This document shows positions 34,157-46,070 of a DNA stretch of 64,000 nucleotides, piece by piece. The notes under the pieces are model-generated. The model was not told the DNA's origin. It did not search any database and was given only the letters and a program-made list of their open reading frames with translations. The position numbers and the translations under genes were made by a program. Source of the stretch: Ceratodon purpureus (Eukaryota; Streptophyta; Bryopsida; Pseudoditrichales; Ditrichaceae); the NCBI GenBank assembly GCA_014871385.1, contig CM026429.1, positions 13,739,783 through 13,803,782 on the forward strand. Direction: 5' to 3'. Position 1 is the first letter of the stretch; every line of letters begins with the position of its first letter.

Positions 34157-34387
34157 TGTACAATAGAGCTGAAACTTAATGGTAACATGCGTAATGAATT
34201 TGATGCTATCGAGAAGTGGCTGGAATTGAGAAAACTTACACCCCCATCCTCGTTTGACCTAATCACTTCTAAACCTTGCACAATTGATAGAAGTGGAGTG
34301 CAAAATCAGTGAAGAAAGTTGGGAGTGTACAGAAGAGCTGAAACTTAATGGTAACATGTATGATGAATTTGATGCTATCGAGAAGTA
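34157..34387. repeat. Direct repeat of about 62 bp spanning the M32 stop codon
   Basis: 34157-34218 and 34327-34387 share GAGCTGAAACTTAATGGTAA, then CATG, TGAATTTGATGCTATCGAGA and AGT, with a few mismatches. The second copy includes the M32 stop codon (34375-34377); the first lies 3' of the gene. Confidence 0.9.
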
Positions 34388-36147
34388 GACAATTCAGGAG
34401 TGGACAGGTTGTAGAGAGCACCGTATTTTCGAGACAAGTAGTCTAAGAAACACTTGGCATCAAGCTTGCTTCCAGTGACTTGCTCAATGAGTTCATCAGC
34501 CGTTTCATACAAAGAGCCCACAGAATGGATCTTGTCCCGCAACCATTCTCGAAGCTGCGAGAATTTGCCGTCCTGGATCTGTTTTCGGAGGCCTGGGATC
34601 TGCTTCTCGGCGGTCAGGAAGATCATGGAAGCGTAGACGGCGCCGAGAGTGTAAGTGGGGAAGTAGCCGAACAAGCCCATGCTCCAGTGAATGTCCTGCA
34701 AGCAACCTTCGACGTCGTCCTTGGGCACGATGCCCAGATACTCCTCCATCTTCTGGTTCCAAATTGCGGGAATGTCGGCAACTTGGAGGCTCCCATCGAG
34801 CAATCCCTTCTCGATCTCGAAGCGGAGCAGGATGTGGAGCGGGTACGAGACTTCGTCAGCTTCAACGCGGATCATTCCGGGCCTGACCTCGTTGATGAGC
34901 TTGTGGTAATCGCTGGCGGCGATGGCGGGGTTCAAGGAGTCCGAGAACCTGCGCTGCACCACTGGCCAGTAATGCTCCCAAAACTCCATGCTCATGCCCA
35001 CCTGCTTCTCCCACAGGAGAGATTGGCTCTCGTGCAGGCCCATGCCCGGCGGCTTCGACGCCGGCAACCCGTCCGCGCGCGCCTGTGCGTCCAACCCCTG
35101 CTCGTACAGCCCGTGACCTGCCTCGTGGAGCGTCGCCAACAAACCCGAGCTTAGCTCCGTCTCCCGGAACCGCGAAGTTATCCGGACATCGAACGGCGAG
35201 CCCACGGGGATCGTCATCGGGTGCGTGGAGACATCAAACCTGCCAGACGCGAAATCGAACCCTATCTCCTCTGCGAATTGCCTCGCGACCACCATCTGAG
35301 TGTCGACTGAAAGCTCCACGCCGTCGAGGAGGTCGTTGGTCGTATCAGATTTGGCTCGGATCTGCTTCACCAGGGCGATGAGTGGGGTTTTGAGCGAGGC
35401 GAAGAGGGGCTCCAGGCGCGCCACAGTCAAGCCGCGCTCGAAACGGTCGAGGCAGTAATCGTAGACATCCGTGCCGGGATCCGCCACGGCGGCGGTTTCC
35501 TCTCTAGCGATGTCGATCCACTCCTGGAGCACGGGCGCGAAGATGGCGAAGTCGTTCTCCTTCCGCGCCTTCTGCCACGCCGCGACGCCATTGGCTTCGA
35601 GCGCTGCCGCGCGCGCCGCGAGCTCCACGGGCTTCTTCTTCGTGCGGTTGTACTCACGGGCGGCCTCTCGCACCGACGCGATCTCCGCGGGCGTGAAGCC
35701 GTGCAGAGGCTCCGCGCGGGAGAGAGCCTCCAGCGCTGCCCCTATGGCGTCGCTCGTCTTGTGCGCGTGCGCGACGCGCGCGATGACCTCCTGCTGTGCG
35801 CCCCTGGTGGCCACGCCGTTGGGTGGCATGTACACTTGCTGGTCCCATGTGAGCAGCGCTGTTACTCCCTCCAGACAGCTGATCTCCTTCAGCTTCTCCT
35901 TCAGCTGCTCGAACGCCTCTCTTGCACCAGTGCTCCCTTCATCGCCACCCATGCTGATGCTGCTACTGCTATTGCTCGCCCTCGCCACCCCGAATCCTCC
36001 TCCTCTTCCTGGGACTCTAATACTAGCGCTCTCCCTGCGGAGATAGGGCAGGCCAGAGATGCTGCTACTATTCCTGCTCCTGCCGCTCCGGGTGGGGATG
36101 AGCGATGAGCGACAGCAGCAGTGCTGCCGCAGGGAGACCAGTGCCAT
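34375..36147 (-). CDS. M32 family metallocarboxypeptidase (carboxypeptidase Taq type), plastid-targeted
   Basis: Zinc carboxypeptidase that removes C-terminal residues from peptides, by family knowledge. One intronless 590-codon frame. Residues 1-70 are Ser/Arg-rich with few acidic residues (MALVSLRQHCCCRSSLIPT...), a typical chloroplast or mitochondrial transit peptide. The M32 domain follows at about 75-580, close to the roughly 500-residue norm. It has the HEAGH zinc motif at residues 341-345 and the family motif HESQS from residue 372 (LHESQSLLWEKQVG). Other conserved stretches are LLTWDQQVYMPP near the start and VRPGMIRVEADEVSYPLHI later. It is far richer in GC than its neighbours and has no intron while nearby genes have many, hinting at a bacterial or retro-copied origin. 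It lies head-to-head with HDS, 75 bases apart. Confidence 0.93.
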   Translation of the reverse strand: MALVSLRQHCCCRSSLIPTRSGRSRNSSSISGLPYLRRESASIRVPGRGGGFGVARASNSSSSISMGGDEGSTGAREAFEQLKEKLKEISCLEGVTALLTWDQQVYMPPNGVATRGAQQEVIARVAHAHKTSDAIGAALEALSRAEPLHGFTPAEIASVREAAREYNRTKKKPVELAARAAALEANGVAAWQKARKENDFAIFAPVLQEWIDIAREETAAVADPGTDVYDYCLDRFERGLTVARLEPLFASLKTPLIALVKQIRAKSDTTNDLLDGVELSVDTQMVVARQFAEEIGFDFASGRFDVSTHPMTIPVGSPFDVRITSRFRETELSSGLLATLHEAGHGLYEQGLDAQARADGLPASKPPGMGLHESQSLLWEKQVGMSMEFWEHYWPVVQRRFSDSLNPAIAASDYHKLINEVRPGMIRVEADEVSYPLHILLRFEIEKGLLDGSLQVADIPAIWNQKMEEYLGIVPKDDVEGCLQDIHWSMGLFGYFPTYTLGAVYASMIFLTAEKQIPGLRKQIQDGKFSQLREWLRDKIHSVGSLYETADELIEQVTGSKLDAKCFLDYLSRKYGALYNLSTPELSTSR

Positions 36148-41286: not shown

Positions 41287-41500
41287 GTGAGGACCTTCGA
41301 GGATATCAGTTAAGCGAAAGCTCACAAATTTTATAAGACGCCGTTAGCTCATTTTTAATATTGAGCATGTTTTTGCTATGATTACAGTTGTAGGGCACTT
41401 ACGGCCAAAAAAGTAGAGATATCATGCAACTGAGGCTATTATTATAGGAGGTTGTTAAATTGTGAATTACAAGGATAGAAGGTGCTGCTCCCTCGTCACT
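41287..41500. other. HDS 3' untranslated region and left flank of the foldback element
   Basis: Short spacer. No gene or clear target-site duplication was seen at the boundary. Confidence 0.6.
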
Positions 41501-42385
41501 AGCCAGCCTCGAAATCGAGGACTGGCTAGGGCGATCGGGGCCGTCGATCTCAAGGGAACAATCTAGTCCGTCCGATCCTTTGTCAATGGTGGGGGCCCGC
41601 GAAGAGGAAGAAATCAACTGTTCACTGTGAATTTAATATTAGTCACATGTGACAGAATGGCATGGGGATGCATGCGGACGGGTATGCATCGGGCTGGGGG
41701 CTTGGGGCTTGGGGCTTGGGGCTTGGGACTGGGTAGTGGGGGCTGGGGGCTGGGGGCTTGGGGCTTGGGGCTTGGGGCTGGGTAGTGGGGGCTGGGGGCT
41801 TGGGGCTTGGGGCTGGGGTGTGGGGGCTGGGGGCTTGGGTCTTGGGGGTTGCGGGCTTGGGGGCTTGGGTCTTGGGTGTGGGGGCTTGGGGCTAGGGTGT
41901 GGGGGCTTGGGTGTGGGGGCTTGGGGCTGGGGGCTTGGGTCTTGGGGGTTGCGGGCTTGGGGGCTTGGGGCTCGGAGGTTGGGGGCTTGATGTAATGGCT
42001 TGGGTTAGGGGCTTGGAGGTAGCTGGGGCTTTGTGGAGGAAAGTCTGGGGTTGGTTAATGAACAAGGACATGGGTTTCAAATTAATTCTATTATGCTTAT
42101 GGTTATGTAAATTTGTTATTTATTTACATGAGTCTTTATCAAAAATTTGATGATATTTATTTTTGAATATAATCAAATATAAGACGATATATTTTTAAAA
42201 ATTAATCATTTCAAGCTTTGTGCTCACTTTAATATTAAAAAGATATCATGTAGTTTGTGTAATAATTGAATTTTTTTGAAATTAAAATAAATTTGTAACT
42301 TTTTTGTTTTCCTATTACTTGAAGTGCATGAATAAGTTAAAGATTTTCAAAGATGATAGTTTCAATGTATCTAATGTGATTTATC
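41501..42385 (+). repeat. Left inverted-repeat arm of the foldback element
   Basis: In order: terminal hairpin, a GC-rich unique block to about 41690, the G-rich minisatellite to about 42030, then an AT-rich unique block ending GTGATTTATC. Just inside, 42402-42447 is a diverged inverted copy of 42329-42373, so the inner edge has also been rearranged. Confidence 0.93.
41690..42030 (+). repeat. GGGGCTT-type minisatellite in the left arm
   Basis: Dozens of units of the heptamer GGGGCTT, mixed with GGGGGCT, GGGTAGTG, GGGGTGT and GGGTCTT variants. Regular runs of three to five G on one strand could form G-quadruplexes. The Gly/Leu/Trp-rich frames read from it are a by-product of the repeat. Confidence 0.97.
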
Positions 42386-42664
42386 TATAGTATTGGGGTT
42401 AGAGACATTGAAATTATCATTTTTGAAAGTTAATTACTTCTTCATGGAATGTCCAGCTAGGATATATAATCATACACTTGAATTTTCTTAAGTAAATTTT
42501 ATACAATGCATAATTAGAAAACGCACAAATTTTGGAATTACATTCTATAAATAATTTGAAAAGTTACAATAACCATAGTAGGATGGTAGCAAAACCACCA
42601 CCACAGAGACATTTATTATATATCAATCTTCTATACGAAGTTGCATTGCTTTGCCTTTATATGT

Positions 42665-43168
42665 TCAATAAAAATTCAACTCTTTGAAAAACAATTCCAA
42701 ATCTTCTTCACCTTCACAATTATCTTTTTCTAGTGCACCACTATCACTACCTTTTGCAATAACATATTGGCAATTGTGACACTCCCTAAACCCTAAACCG
42801 TCAAAGAATATGTTCAGTCCTTCACATTTGGGACATTCTTCTTGGCATAACTTTGGCAATTTCACCCTTGTGCGTTTCTTTTGCACTAGTTGTCTTTGTC
42901 GTAGTACTTTGATTCCACCACCTGGTCTTAGTAATTGAATTATTTGTTCTTCTCCGCTATGCAAGTCTTTGTAATTCAATTTTCTTTTCTTCTTCTTGTG
43001 GCTTCCATGTCCAAGTCTTGTATTCGTAACATGGACTTGAATAGGGGTAATACTTCCACCCCATCTTGGCAAAGAGATTCGATTTGGCTTTGGTACTAAG
43101 CCCATGTTTTCTAGGAACACTGCCAAAAACATTTCTCTTGCCCTCTTAATTGCTTCACGTTGCTCCAT
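42665..43168 (-). CDS. Zinc-ribbon protein ORF inside the foldback element (167 aa)
   Basis: A complete frame from ATG 43168 to the stop, in otherwise AT-rich DNA. The first 60 residues are basic (MEQREAIKRAREMF...), followed by a KKKKRKL cluster that looks like a nuclear signal. A four-cysteine zinc ribbon spans about residues 113-134: CPKC, 14 residues, CHNC. The tail is acidic (GEEDLELFF). The length, ordered basic-zinc-acidic layout and lack of internal stops argue for a real or recently real gene. No transposase catalytic domain is present. The start codon lies two bases from the TTAA that bounds the neighbouring piggyBac-like element, so its promoter may have been separated by that insertion or supplied by it. 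Function unknown. Confidence 0.55.
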   Translation of the reverse strand: MEQREAIKRAREMFLAVFLENMGLVPKPNRISLPRWGGSITPIQVHVTNTRLGHGSHKKKKRKLNYKDLHSGEEQIIQLLRPGGGIKVLRQRQLVQKKRTRVKLPKLCQEECPKCEGLNIFFDGLGFRECHNCQYVIAKGSDSGALEKDNCEGEEDLELFFKELNFY

Positions 43169-43170
43169 TC

Positions 43171-44106
43171 TTAACCCCTAAGTGCCCAGGAAAGCCAAAA
43201 CGGCTTGTTGCTGTTTTGGTCAATCTAGATAAAGGGGTTAAAATTGATATTTTTGCCTAAGTTTTTTACTGGATGCTCCTTGTACTGCAAAGTGTATGTG
43301 GTAAAATTTGCAAAGCCAAATTCCAATTTTAAGACCTTCATCTAGAAATATTAGGTTTCAAGTCCAAAACATGCAGCTTTAAATTAGGCTTTTTTGTAAA
43401 AACAATACTTGAAATATGTTCATAACCAAACCACCACTCAAATTCCAAAGAGACCCAAGTCAAAAAATATCCCAATTTTACAAGGGCAGCCTCTAAAAAT
43501 TACAAAGACAAGCTTCAATATTTTCAGTAATTTTTGAATTACTTCTTTCAAAATTCGTCAAAATTTGAGATTTTGAAATTTTTCAAAAATAATTTGGCTC
43601 AAAAATCAAAAACTTCTAAATGCACCTAACAACCATTCAGATTTTTCTAAAACCAAATATACGTGACGTCATGCATGTTTTACTATATCAACGTTTTTAG
43701 ACCTGCTTCTAGAAAACAATTTTTATGAGAGCCAAAAAAAGGAATGAGTCTCTCAAATTTTCCATGGAGGTACTCAGCTTGATTACCTACATGGGAAAAA
43801 ACATGGGCAAAATGTTTGGGGTAACAGTCTTCAACTCCCCCTTTGCACCATTTTGACTATGTCATTCAACCAATGCCCAAAAAAAGTTTTGCTGCAACTT
43901 TGAATATTATAATCTCTAAGATGGTAAACATCTAAAGGCTGAAAATTTTATCAGTATTTCTAAAGAAGGTTTAGTACAAGATCTTACGGCTGGATGTCTA
44001 AAAAAAGCAAATTTGTTTGGTTCAAATTGTCGTTTCTACAAGGTGGTCAAAAATCACTATTTTGGAGGTTTTGAGATCCAAAACATGCTTGGGCACTTAG
44101 GGTTAA
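43171..44106. mobile_element. Non-autonomous piggyBac-like element with TTAA ends (936 bp)
   Basis: The left end reads TTAACCCCTAAGTGCCCAGG. The right end, reversed, reads TTAACCCTAAGTGCCCAAGC: inverted repeats of about 16 bases with one C indel, each preceded by TTAA. TTAA target sites and termini starting CCY define the piggyBac superfamily. The interior is AT-rich and has no long ORF, so it would depend on a transposase elsewhere. It sits entirely within the loop of the foldback element, next to the zinc-ribbon ORF. Confidence 0.65.
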
Positions 44107-44266
44107 AACATCATATTTTTTCCTTGGACAATTTTGTGTTGCAGTCACGTTTGATATCTTCATAACCAACTCCCTTACAAAACCAACTCCATCGTAATCA
44201 AAATCGTTGTGGGTCAAAATCAACTCCATTAATCAATTCCATCAAAATCAATTCCATTAGATTATG

Positions 44267-45051
44267 GATAAATCACATTAGATACATTGAAACTATCATC
44301 TTTGAAAATCTTTAACTTATTCATGCACTTGAAGTAATAGGAAAACAAAAAAGTTACAAATTTATTTTAATTTCAAAAAATATTACACAAACTACATGAT
44401 ATCTTTTTAATATTAAAGTGAGCACAAAGCTTGAAATGATTAATTTTAAAAAATATACCGTCTTATATTTGATTATATTCAAAAATAAATATCATCAAAT
44501 TTTTGATAAAGACTCATATAAATAAATAACAAATTTACATAACCATAAGCATTATAAAATTAATTTGAAACCCGTGTCCTTGTTCATTAGCCAACCCCAG
44601 ACTTTCCCCCACAAAGCCCTAGCTACCCCCAAGCCCCTAGCCCAAGCCTTTACATCAAGCCCCCAACCCCTGAGCCCCAAGCCCCCAAGCCCGCAACCCC
44701 CGAGACCCAAGCCCCCAGCCCCCAGCCCCAAGCCCCCACACTCAAGCCCCAAGCCCCCAAGCCCGCAACCCCCAAGACCCAAGCCCCCAGCCCCCACACC
44801 CCAGCCCCCACACCCAAGCCCCAAGCCCCAAGCCCCAAGCCCCAAGCCCCAAGCCCCAAGCCCCAAGCCCCCGTCCGCATGCATCCCCATGCCATTCTGT
44901 CACATGTGACTAATATTAAATTCACAGTGAACAGTTGATTTCTTCCTCTTCGCGGGCCCCCACCATTGACAAAGGATCGGACGGATCAGATTGTTCCCTT
45001 GAGATCGACGGCCCCGATCGCCCTAGCCAGTCCTCGATTTCGAGGCTGGCT
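44267..45051 (-). repeat. Right inverted-repeat arm of the foldback element
   Basis: Reverse complement of the left arm, 100 bases shorter because its minisatellite has fewer units. Outer block, minisatellite and inner AT-rich block are in mirror order. Confidence 0.93.
44640..44875 (-). repeat. Minisatellite in the right arm (AAGCCCC on + strand)
   Basis: The outermost part (about 44816-44872) is an almost perfect run of eight CCCCAAG heptamers, more uniform than anything in the left arm. The rest mixes variants as on the left. Confidence 0.97.
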
Positions 45052-45060
45052 GGTCGCGAG

Positions 45061-46070
45061 GCAAAACCCTTGCAACTTCGAATTCATGGACCCACCGCTT
45101 CAAAAATCCTTTGTTGGCAATCTTGCACGTCACCACATTGGGCTTATGATTGCGGCACTTGTAACCAATCATCCAAGAGTTTTAAGCATGATATGAAGAT
45201 GAGCAATTTCGACATGTGGAGGCATAGACAACACCATAATTAGTATGGTAAGGTGGTCAATAATGGCTCAATTTTCAGCATTGAAAATCTTTAGTAAGTT
45301 AGTAATGCAAGTAATTTTTGTGCATGGGAAAGTAAGTGAAAAGATAGAGCTAGTGGAATCATCATATTTGGACTCTTCTACAATTAGTTACAAATTTTTG
45401 AAGCTCAAATTATAGGTGTTTCTAAAATGGTGCCTTAAAATGGCACCCTAGAATGTTGACTCTGTGGATATGATACTGTTGATTTGGGAAGCTATTATGT
45501 ATATCTAAGTAAAGATTAGTAGAGCTTCAATATTGGACTTGCTCCATTTTAGACTACTCTACTATATTTACCCTTGCAACCTTCAATGCTTGCAAAAACC
45601 CACCGCTTCAAAAACCTTTGCACATCGCTATAGTGGACTCGTGATTACGGCACTTGTGTTGTAAGTGGCTCAAGAAACCGCTCAAATATCAAATTGGCAT
45701 GGTCATTAGGGAGTTATTAAGGGAATCAATTTTTGAAGATGTCCAAAGTATTTAGGAGATTGGCATAGATTAATTGGAATAATTAATTTTGGATTAGTAT
45801 TGAATTAGTCATGAATTTTACAAGGGGAACTCACAGGTGTACCCAAAACCACTCAGCCTAATATATGCACCATGGTTTCAATTAAATTTGAAGTTGGAAG
45901 TTGTATTGTATAGGTCTAGGAAGTGGTTTGTGGTGTTGTGTTGGTTTAAAGCCACCTAATTAATCAATGAAGAGTTTGAAGCTTTATACAAAGAAGAGCT
46001 ATTTTGACATGTGGAGTGATAGACAACACTGTAATGTATATTGTAATGACTATGTGAATTTTACAAGGGA
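45061..46070. repeat. Diverged direct repeats flanking the foldback element
   Basis: ACCCTTGCAAC, CCCACCGCTTCAAAAA, CCTTTG and ATTNCGGCACTTGT occur in the same order at about 45065-45165 and 45570-45660. ATTT(T/C)GACATGTGGAG, followed by ATAGACAACAC, occurs at about 45205-45235 and 46005-46035. Together they imply an old duplicated unit of several hundred bases whose first copy starts at the foldback boundary. Confidence 0.7.

Follow-up and report, generated by a model that had tools for sequence, protein, structure and literature searches.

How does a transposable element acquire two long mirror-image arms, and what moves it afterwards? The question is raised by a locus in the moss Ceratodon purpureus, within a window (the whole 64,000-nucleotide stretch of DNA that was analysed; C9:13739783-13803782 of the 362.5-Mb assembly) in which two G-rich arms in inverted order enclose a loop with an open reading frame (ORF). 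A sequence-only reading of this locus had described a foldback element with an unfamiliar combination of parts. The element is very probably a non-autonomous, internally rearranged member of a Mutator-like element (MULE) family, namely a foldback that derives from a MULE whose 5' half was replaced by the inverted 3' end. The family is new and well resolved; MULE/Foldback elements as a kind are already known, and what is unusual here is how legible the origin is.

Structure of the element

The similarity of the window copy to full copies on C6 and C2 stops at positions 41490/41491 and 45061/45062. The inverted order of the arms was borne out by self-BLAST (41491-42389 versus 45061-44263, E 0.0, far above chance), but the arm lengths first given, 885 and 785 bases, gave way to 899 and 799 bp, and the true ends lie about 10 bp further out on each side. 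Aligned arm to arm, 187 of 192 positions of the outer part and 380 of 394 positions of the inner part are identical. Each arm has a hairpin at its tip, then a GGGGCTT minisatellite, and is AT-rich in its inner part; the arms differ in length because the minisatellites do. The element therefore has two features of the foldback class, namely long terminal inverted repeats able to fold back and tandem repeats within them, the latter also present in the arms of its relatives. The hairpin tips and the heptamer arrays of the sequence-only reading both stood, as listed below with the other features (window coordinates).

41491..45061, no strand: whole element, a MULE-derived foldback of 3,571 bp, delimited by similarity to other copies
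41491..42389, plus strand: left arm, 899 bp, equivalent to the parent MULE's 3' end: tip CCTCGTCACT..., then minisatellite and 3' untranslated part
44263..45061, minus strand: right arm, 799 bp, an inverted copy of the 3' end with a 5'-type tip CCTCGCGACC as cap
41501..41532, plus strand: left-tip hairpin, folded with RNA energy parameters
45020..45051, minus strand: right-tip hairpin, mirror of the left one, from the alignment and seen in the sequence
41691..41989, plus strand: GGGGCTT minisatellite of the left arm, 42 copies of period 7 (10 G-quadruplex motifs in the left arm)
44656..44871, minus strand: GGGGCTT minisatellite of the right arm (CAAGCCC on the plus strand), 30 copies of period 7
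44617-44872: the seven G-quadruplex motifs of the right arm
42327..42446, no strand: imperfect palindrome of the left arm, in the loop of which the similarity between arms stops
44196..44262, minus strand: junction filler between the inverted 3' arm and the transposase tail, imperfect repeats of the adjoining GATGGAGTTGATTTTG
44104..44229, minus strand: start of the loop frame, first residues from the filler, then transposase tail
43175..44102, no strand: nested TTAA-flanked repeat of 928 bp with ends CCCCTAAGTGCCCA, splitting the loop frame
43171-43174 and 44103-44106: TTAA sites beside the nested repeat
42665..43168, minus strand: loop ORF of 167 aa with CxxC...CxxC, the C-terminal tail of a MULE transposase

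The loop frame and the family transposase

The loop was rightly called coding, but its 167-aa ORF is only the end of a longer frame that starts at 44229-44104, beyond the nested repeat. By sequence, the ORF gave only sub-threshold matches to Pfam and PDB families (L37ae, TFIIB and similar), and its AlphaFold2 model is too weak to bear out a zinc-ribbon fold (mean predicted local distance difference test score 41.3, with strands near residues 109-138 at block means of 41-60). Its identity is evident from relatives in the same genome. At locus L039 the same protein ends a 429-aa frame with a SWIM finger (PF04434, E 7.8e-5), downstream of a frame with the MULE catalytic domain (PF10551, E 9.1e-11); PF10551 is also found in L041 (E 1.1e-11) and L037 (E 1.4e-6), and the window copy retains the tail only. 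No P-type or THAP family was found in the transposase frames of L037, L038, L039 and L041, in which Pfam scans returned MULE and SWIM. The association of a zinc-ribbon ORF with G-rich arms, taken for an unfamiliar combination, is accordingly not borne out as new: the ORF is the tail of the family's own MULE transposase, and its capture from a host gene was rejected, since it is joined to that transposase in relatives.

The 429-aa frame has at least 105 matches in the genome (98 of 231 candidates scored; all copy and match counts given here are lower bounds), and the ORFs of the window, C2 and C6 copies match its residues 260-429 at 82-84% without stops. A second, more distant MULE family (L042-L046; PF10551 in L042, E 2e-12) has the same tail at 34-36% identity with the four cysteines kept. 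Presence of the tail in both the relatives and this distant family makes it a regular part of the transposase lineage; the four cysteines of CxxC...CxxC are invariant in 10 sequences. The L042-L046 family has long open frames with the zinc-ribbon-like tail and could supply transposase. Among the frames examined, no copy of the close family is stop-free and hence a candidate source of transposase.

Copies, target duplications and empty sites

The sequence-only reading proposed that several copies with matching ends and target duplications would mark a mobile family, and such copies exist. A genome search returned full copies across the whole 3,551-bp query on C6 (95% identity) and C2 (94%), so the locus is not unique in the genome. 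A 220-base tip query gave at least 42 matches (40 of 64 candidates scored), and a 30-base terminus pattern with at most three mismatches occurred at 72 sites (39 forward, 33 reverse; reversed control, 0) that form 18 inverted pairs within 20 kb. C6, a contig of 110.5 Mb, holds 27 of these 72 termini and 30% of the assembly, which by simple count is somewhat over proportion. MULEs are expected to have target duplications of 9 bp (8-11); here, perfect 9-bp duplications flank five of the 11 complete elements inspected (L009, L010, L020, L021 and L039+L040).

For the C6 copy, a query was made of both flanks joined with one duplication kept, the joint following position 150, and was searched against the genome. 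Its 15 matches comprise the two flanks themselves, eight partial matches to the left flank only and five that are unbroken across the joint. These five are paralogous empty sites, all on C6, at 89-90% identity, with query positions 106-300 uninterrupted. The dispersed copies and empty sites expected of a foldback family are thus both present, the empty sites having been shown for the C6 copy rather than the window copy. The structure is unlikely to be an artefact of assembly, as it recurs at other loci with distinct flanks and target duplications; this judgement rests on comparison of assembled sequences.

In the C9, C6 and C2 copies, the outer 3' arms are closer to one another than to the 5' arm of the same copy, and the inner arms follow the same pattern where measured (the inner 3' arm on C6 was missed by the motif used); these three copies therefore moved as ready-made foldbacks. 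The arms of L020 are 99.86% alike over 724 bp, which makes this copy either young or homogenised.

Short-armed relatives, tips and the junction

Two transposase-bearing relatives with family tips show what the parent may have looked like: L039+L040 (10,138 bp, target duplication CTCTCCTCC, with a DDE_Tnp_4 element lodged inside) and L041 (5,028 bp). On the 3' side they are G-rich and run colinear with the foldback arm; the 5' side is unrelated and carries GGTGGTGACCGTCACC repeats. Since the two ends of these relatives share only 40-80 bp or so, the foldback most likely arose when an inverted copy of a MULE's 3' end took the place of the 5' half of that same MULE. The palindrome GGTGGTGACCGTCACC occurs in arrays of 33/72-bp units ahead of the start of the transposase (L041 4438-4729; L040, at 10950-11270 of L039+L040).

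The two tip types of the family differ, 5' CCTCGCGACC and 3' CCTCGTCACT, and the tip type fits the orientation of the transposase in 14 of 16 pairings within 12 kb, drawn from the 21 of 105 matches of the 429-aa-frame search that, within the close family, extend into the SWIM half. The window element has the 3' tip on its left and the 5' tip on its right; behind that 5' tip, from base 10 or so, the right arm copies the 3' arm. The inner end of this right arm falls in the loop of the imperfect palindrome (window 42327-42446; L041:788-907, with the breakpoint at 850) and is followed by a filler of 67 bases, mostly imperfect repeats of the adjoining GATGGAGTTGATTTTG, that runs into the transposase tail. 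The filler looks locally templated. Eight copies have this junction in common (L001, which is the window copy, L009, L010, L020, L021, L022, L026 and L032), with a shorter filler in L022 and L026 and a longer one in L021 and L032, and L029 and L034 have it in part; it is absent from the transposase-bearing L037, L038, L039 and L041. L031 (6262-8186; C5, about 442.5-444.4 kb) shows the 3' end of this MULE duplicated in inverted order a second time. Its junction is another one of similar style, situated beyond the palindrome and with a short filler that repeats nearby GACAAATAG; the left tip of L031 was sought and not found.

The heptamer array

A genome-wide search for the array (MINISATELLITE) as (GGGGCTT)3, allowing a single mismatch, gave 53 sites, which fall into 12 loci (reversed control, 0). 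Eleven of the 12 loci (52 sites) belong to the family, the sole exception being C1:28538425; ten were assigned by sequence (window, L009, L010, L021, L026, L029, L031, L032; L048, L049) and C6:56954832 because a match to the transposase tail lies less than 1 kb away. In L041, which bears transposase, the G-rich array is of a different kind, and the expansion of the heptamer therefore seems to belong mainly to the foldback branch. Array lengths vary between arms and between copies, and 17 of the 18 non-overlapping G-quadruplex motifs of the whole window lie inside the arms of the element.

Points of conflict and rival explanations

Several observations weigh against derivation of the foldback from a MULE moved by its transposase. 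No target duplication was found at the flanks of the window copy (GTGCTGCTC / CAAAACCCT) or in four other complete elements (L023+L024, L038, L041 and L050), and that of L025 agrees at eight of nine positions with the flanks read from the same terminus. For the window copy, deletion or exchange with another copy would account for the absence; a search of the right flank for its cause returned only a separate miniature inverted-repeat transposable element (MITE; 40 of 344 candidates scored). The two pairings in which tip type and transposase orientation disagree lie on C5 and C6. Some copies, L020 among them, carry the 3'-type tip twice, later exchange having blurred the distinction between the ends. 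A read-through frame was sought in the close transposase copies L037, L038, L039+L040 and L041, and all had stops. The relation between the two kinds of element might also be the reverse, with the foldback form ancestral, the long arms original and the short-armed transposase copies each having lost one arm. The large number of foldback copies, and the decay and interruption of some transposase copies, would fit this history; it is nevertheless improbable, because the unrelated 5' side, which has GGTGGTGACCGTCACC repeats of its own, recurs in two separate transposase-bearing elements, because the right tip of the foldback is of the 5' type and the arm behind it is 3' sequence, and because the hairpin-loop end with its neighbour-repeating filler is found in eight foldbacks and in none of four transposase-bearing relatives, as expected if the foldbacks are derived.

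Two further explanations concern what has kept the loop and what has spread the element, and both are very improbable. The loop ORF could have been kept for a function of its own, for example as a repressor or as a gene captured from the host: none of the three full copies has a stop within the 167 codons, and comparison of these with two transposase copies gives ratios of nonsynonymous to synonymous substitution (dN/dS) of 0.33-0.47, stop-bearing codons having been dropped. Among the three copies themselves, however, dN/dS is 0.38, 0.43 and 1.01 on only 5-11 base differences, too few for selection to be inferred; the nested repeat splits the frame in all three; L020, despite its nearly identical arms, has three stops in the tail; and the ORF is joined to MULE and SWIM parts in relatives. 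The sequence-only reading had suggested that a large hairpin or cruciform could drive mobility or rearrangement, and it could be argued that G-quadruplex arrays and such structures cause the breakage and copying by which the element spread, given the concentration of G-quadruplex motifs in the arms, the variable arrays and the position of the birth junction within a hairpin loop. Against this, the ends are precise, the 9-bp duplications exact and the empty sites clean, all of them marks of transposase-made insertions, and transposase acting in trans would explain movement without hairpin, cruciform or G-quadruplex. DNA structure may have shaped the arms, not the moves.

Comparison with known elements

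Among the closest known systems is Tm1, a Mutator/Foldback family of root-knot nematodes (PMC3169594), which has variable arms of tandem short motifs (14 bp, 1-9 units), outermost motifs that differ at the two ends, 9-bp target duplications, and both non-autonomous and transposase-bearing members of Mutator type. The moss family has another sequence and another host; its arm motif is a G-rich heptamer repeated in long arrays, its arms stem from a single end of a plant-type MULE that has a SWIM finger, and its founder junction is readable. Tetris of Drosophila virilis (PMC4079207) is likewise a foldback with tandem repeats in its arms and 8-10 bp duplications, placed in Mutator by its authors; the source of its transposase is given there as unfound, whereas transposase-bearing relatives are present here in the same genome. 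The same paper cites the idea that foldbacks come from ordinary transposons by loss of the transposase gene and lengthening of the arms. Galileo of Drosophila (PMC3573991) has long, internally repetitive arms, and its authors propose that arms grow when repair from the wrong arm as template recruits internal sequence; Galileo has a P superfamily transposase, and its complete copies are already long-armed, unlike the MULE transposase carriers here. FARE of Arabidopsis and MuTAnT of Medicago (PMC4486113) are plant MULEs with palindromic or foldback arms, but MuTAnT targets TA microsatellites, and a G-rich heptamer array is not mentioned in the available text for either. Plant MULEs with multiple long terminal inverted repeats (PMC3310237) also have rearranged ends, although the extra ends are tandem rather than inverted; that paper discusses recombination and slippage as sources, and elements without target duplication. 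No such moss family was found in the literature searched, which consisted of titles and abstract starts and covered few subscription papers or preprints.

Lodged elements and neighbouring sequence

The nested repeat is also present in the C6 and C2 copies, according to their full-length matches. It belongs to an element of about 930 bp with ends CCCCTAAGTGCCCA (window 43175-44102, L004-L008) that has TTAA on both sides in all five copies viewed and at least 37 further copies at 94-96% identity in the genome (40 of 2419 candidates scored), and is presumably a piggyBac-type MITE. A piggyBac-type transposase (L023 2565-3449, minus strand; DDE_Tnp_1_7, E 3.7e-25), a possible helper of the TTAA element, lies in the 13.6-kb relative L023+L024, which also carries a gypsy-like polyprotein by eye. 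L022 contains a DDE_1 fragment (PF03184, E 1e-4) and L037 a stretch that is DDE_1-like by eye with no Pfam match, each taken as another element lodged inside.

A gene with its stop codon about 204 bp before the start of the window element matches GcpE in its last two exons (PF04551, E 7.6e-14). To its right, window 45066-45251 and 45570-46046 form a local duplication in direct order at 77-79% identity; between these two copies sits the MITE-like repeat of about 325 bp (45244-45567). With 40 of 344 candidates scored, the genome has at least 39 further copies of this repeat at 78-84% identity. One open frame of 590 aa (window 34375-36147, minus strand), which contains a HEAGH motif and presumably resembles an M32 carboxypeptidase, is unbroken, which is unusual in a plant.

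Proposed origin and implications

Derivation from a MULE suggests the following course. During break repair in a MULE, the 5' terminal repeat would have paired with the 3' terminal repeat, over the 40-80 bp or so that they share; copying would have gone inward through the G-rich part and the 3' untranslated region and halted in the hairpin loop; and end-joining, with filler templated from nearby sequence, would have attached the copied end to the transposase tail, leaving an inverted 3' end in place of the catalytic 5' half. The resulting foldback would move by cut-and-paste when transposase from a relative binds its tips. More tentatively, the heptamer array may have grown by slippage and may act as repeated sites of transposase binding or recombination. 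The chances are about even that the genome preserves the birth of a foldback from an ordinary MULE in this form, possibly twice: a mispaired 5' repeat copied the 3' end inward past a G-quadruplex-forming array and stopped, in the first event within a hairpin loop, after which polymerase-theta-like joining sealed the end with templated filler. The principle of copying from the wrong end during repair is not new, having been proposed for Galileo; its legibility here is.

If this account is true, one-end inverted duplication by aborted gap repair would be a testable general route to foldbacks, and G-rich arrays would be aids or scars of stalled copying. The route is open to test because one genome contains the short-armed elements that bear transposase, the founder junction, the copies made later and another, different junction, and an array capable of forming G-quadruplexes that is nearly confined to one family offers a clean case for asking whether such arrays serve transposase binding or disturb replication.

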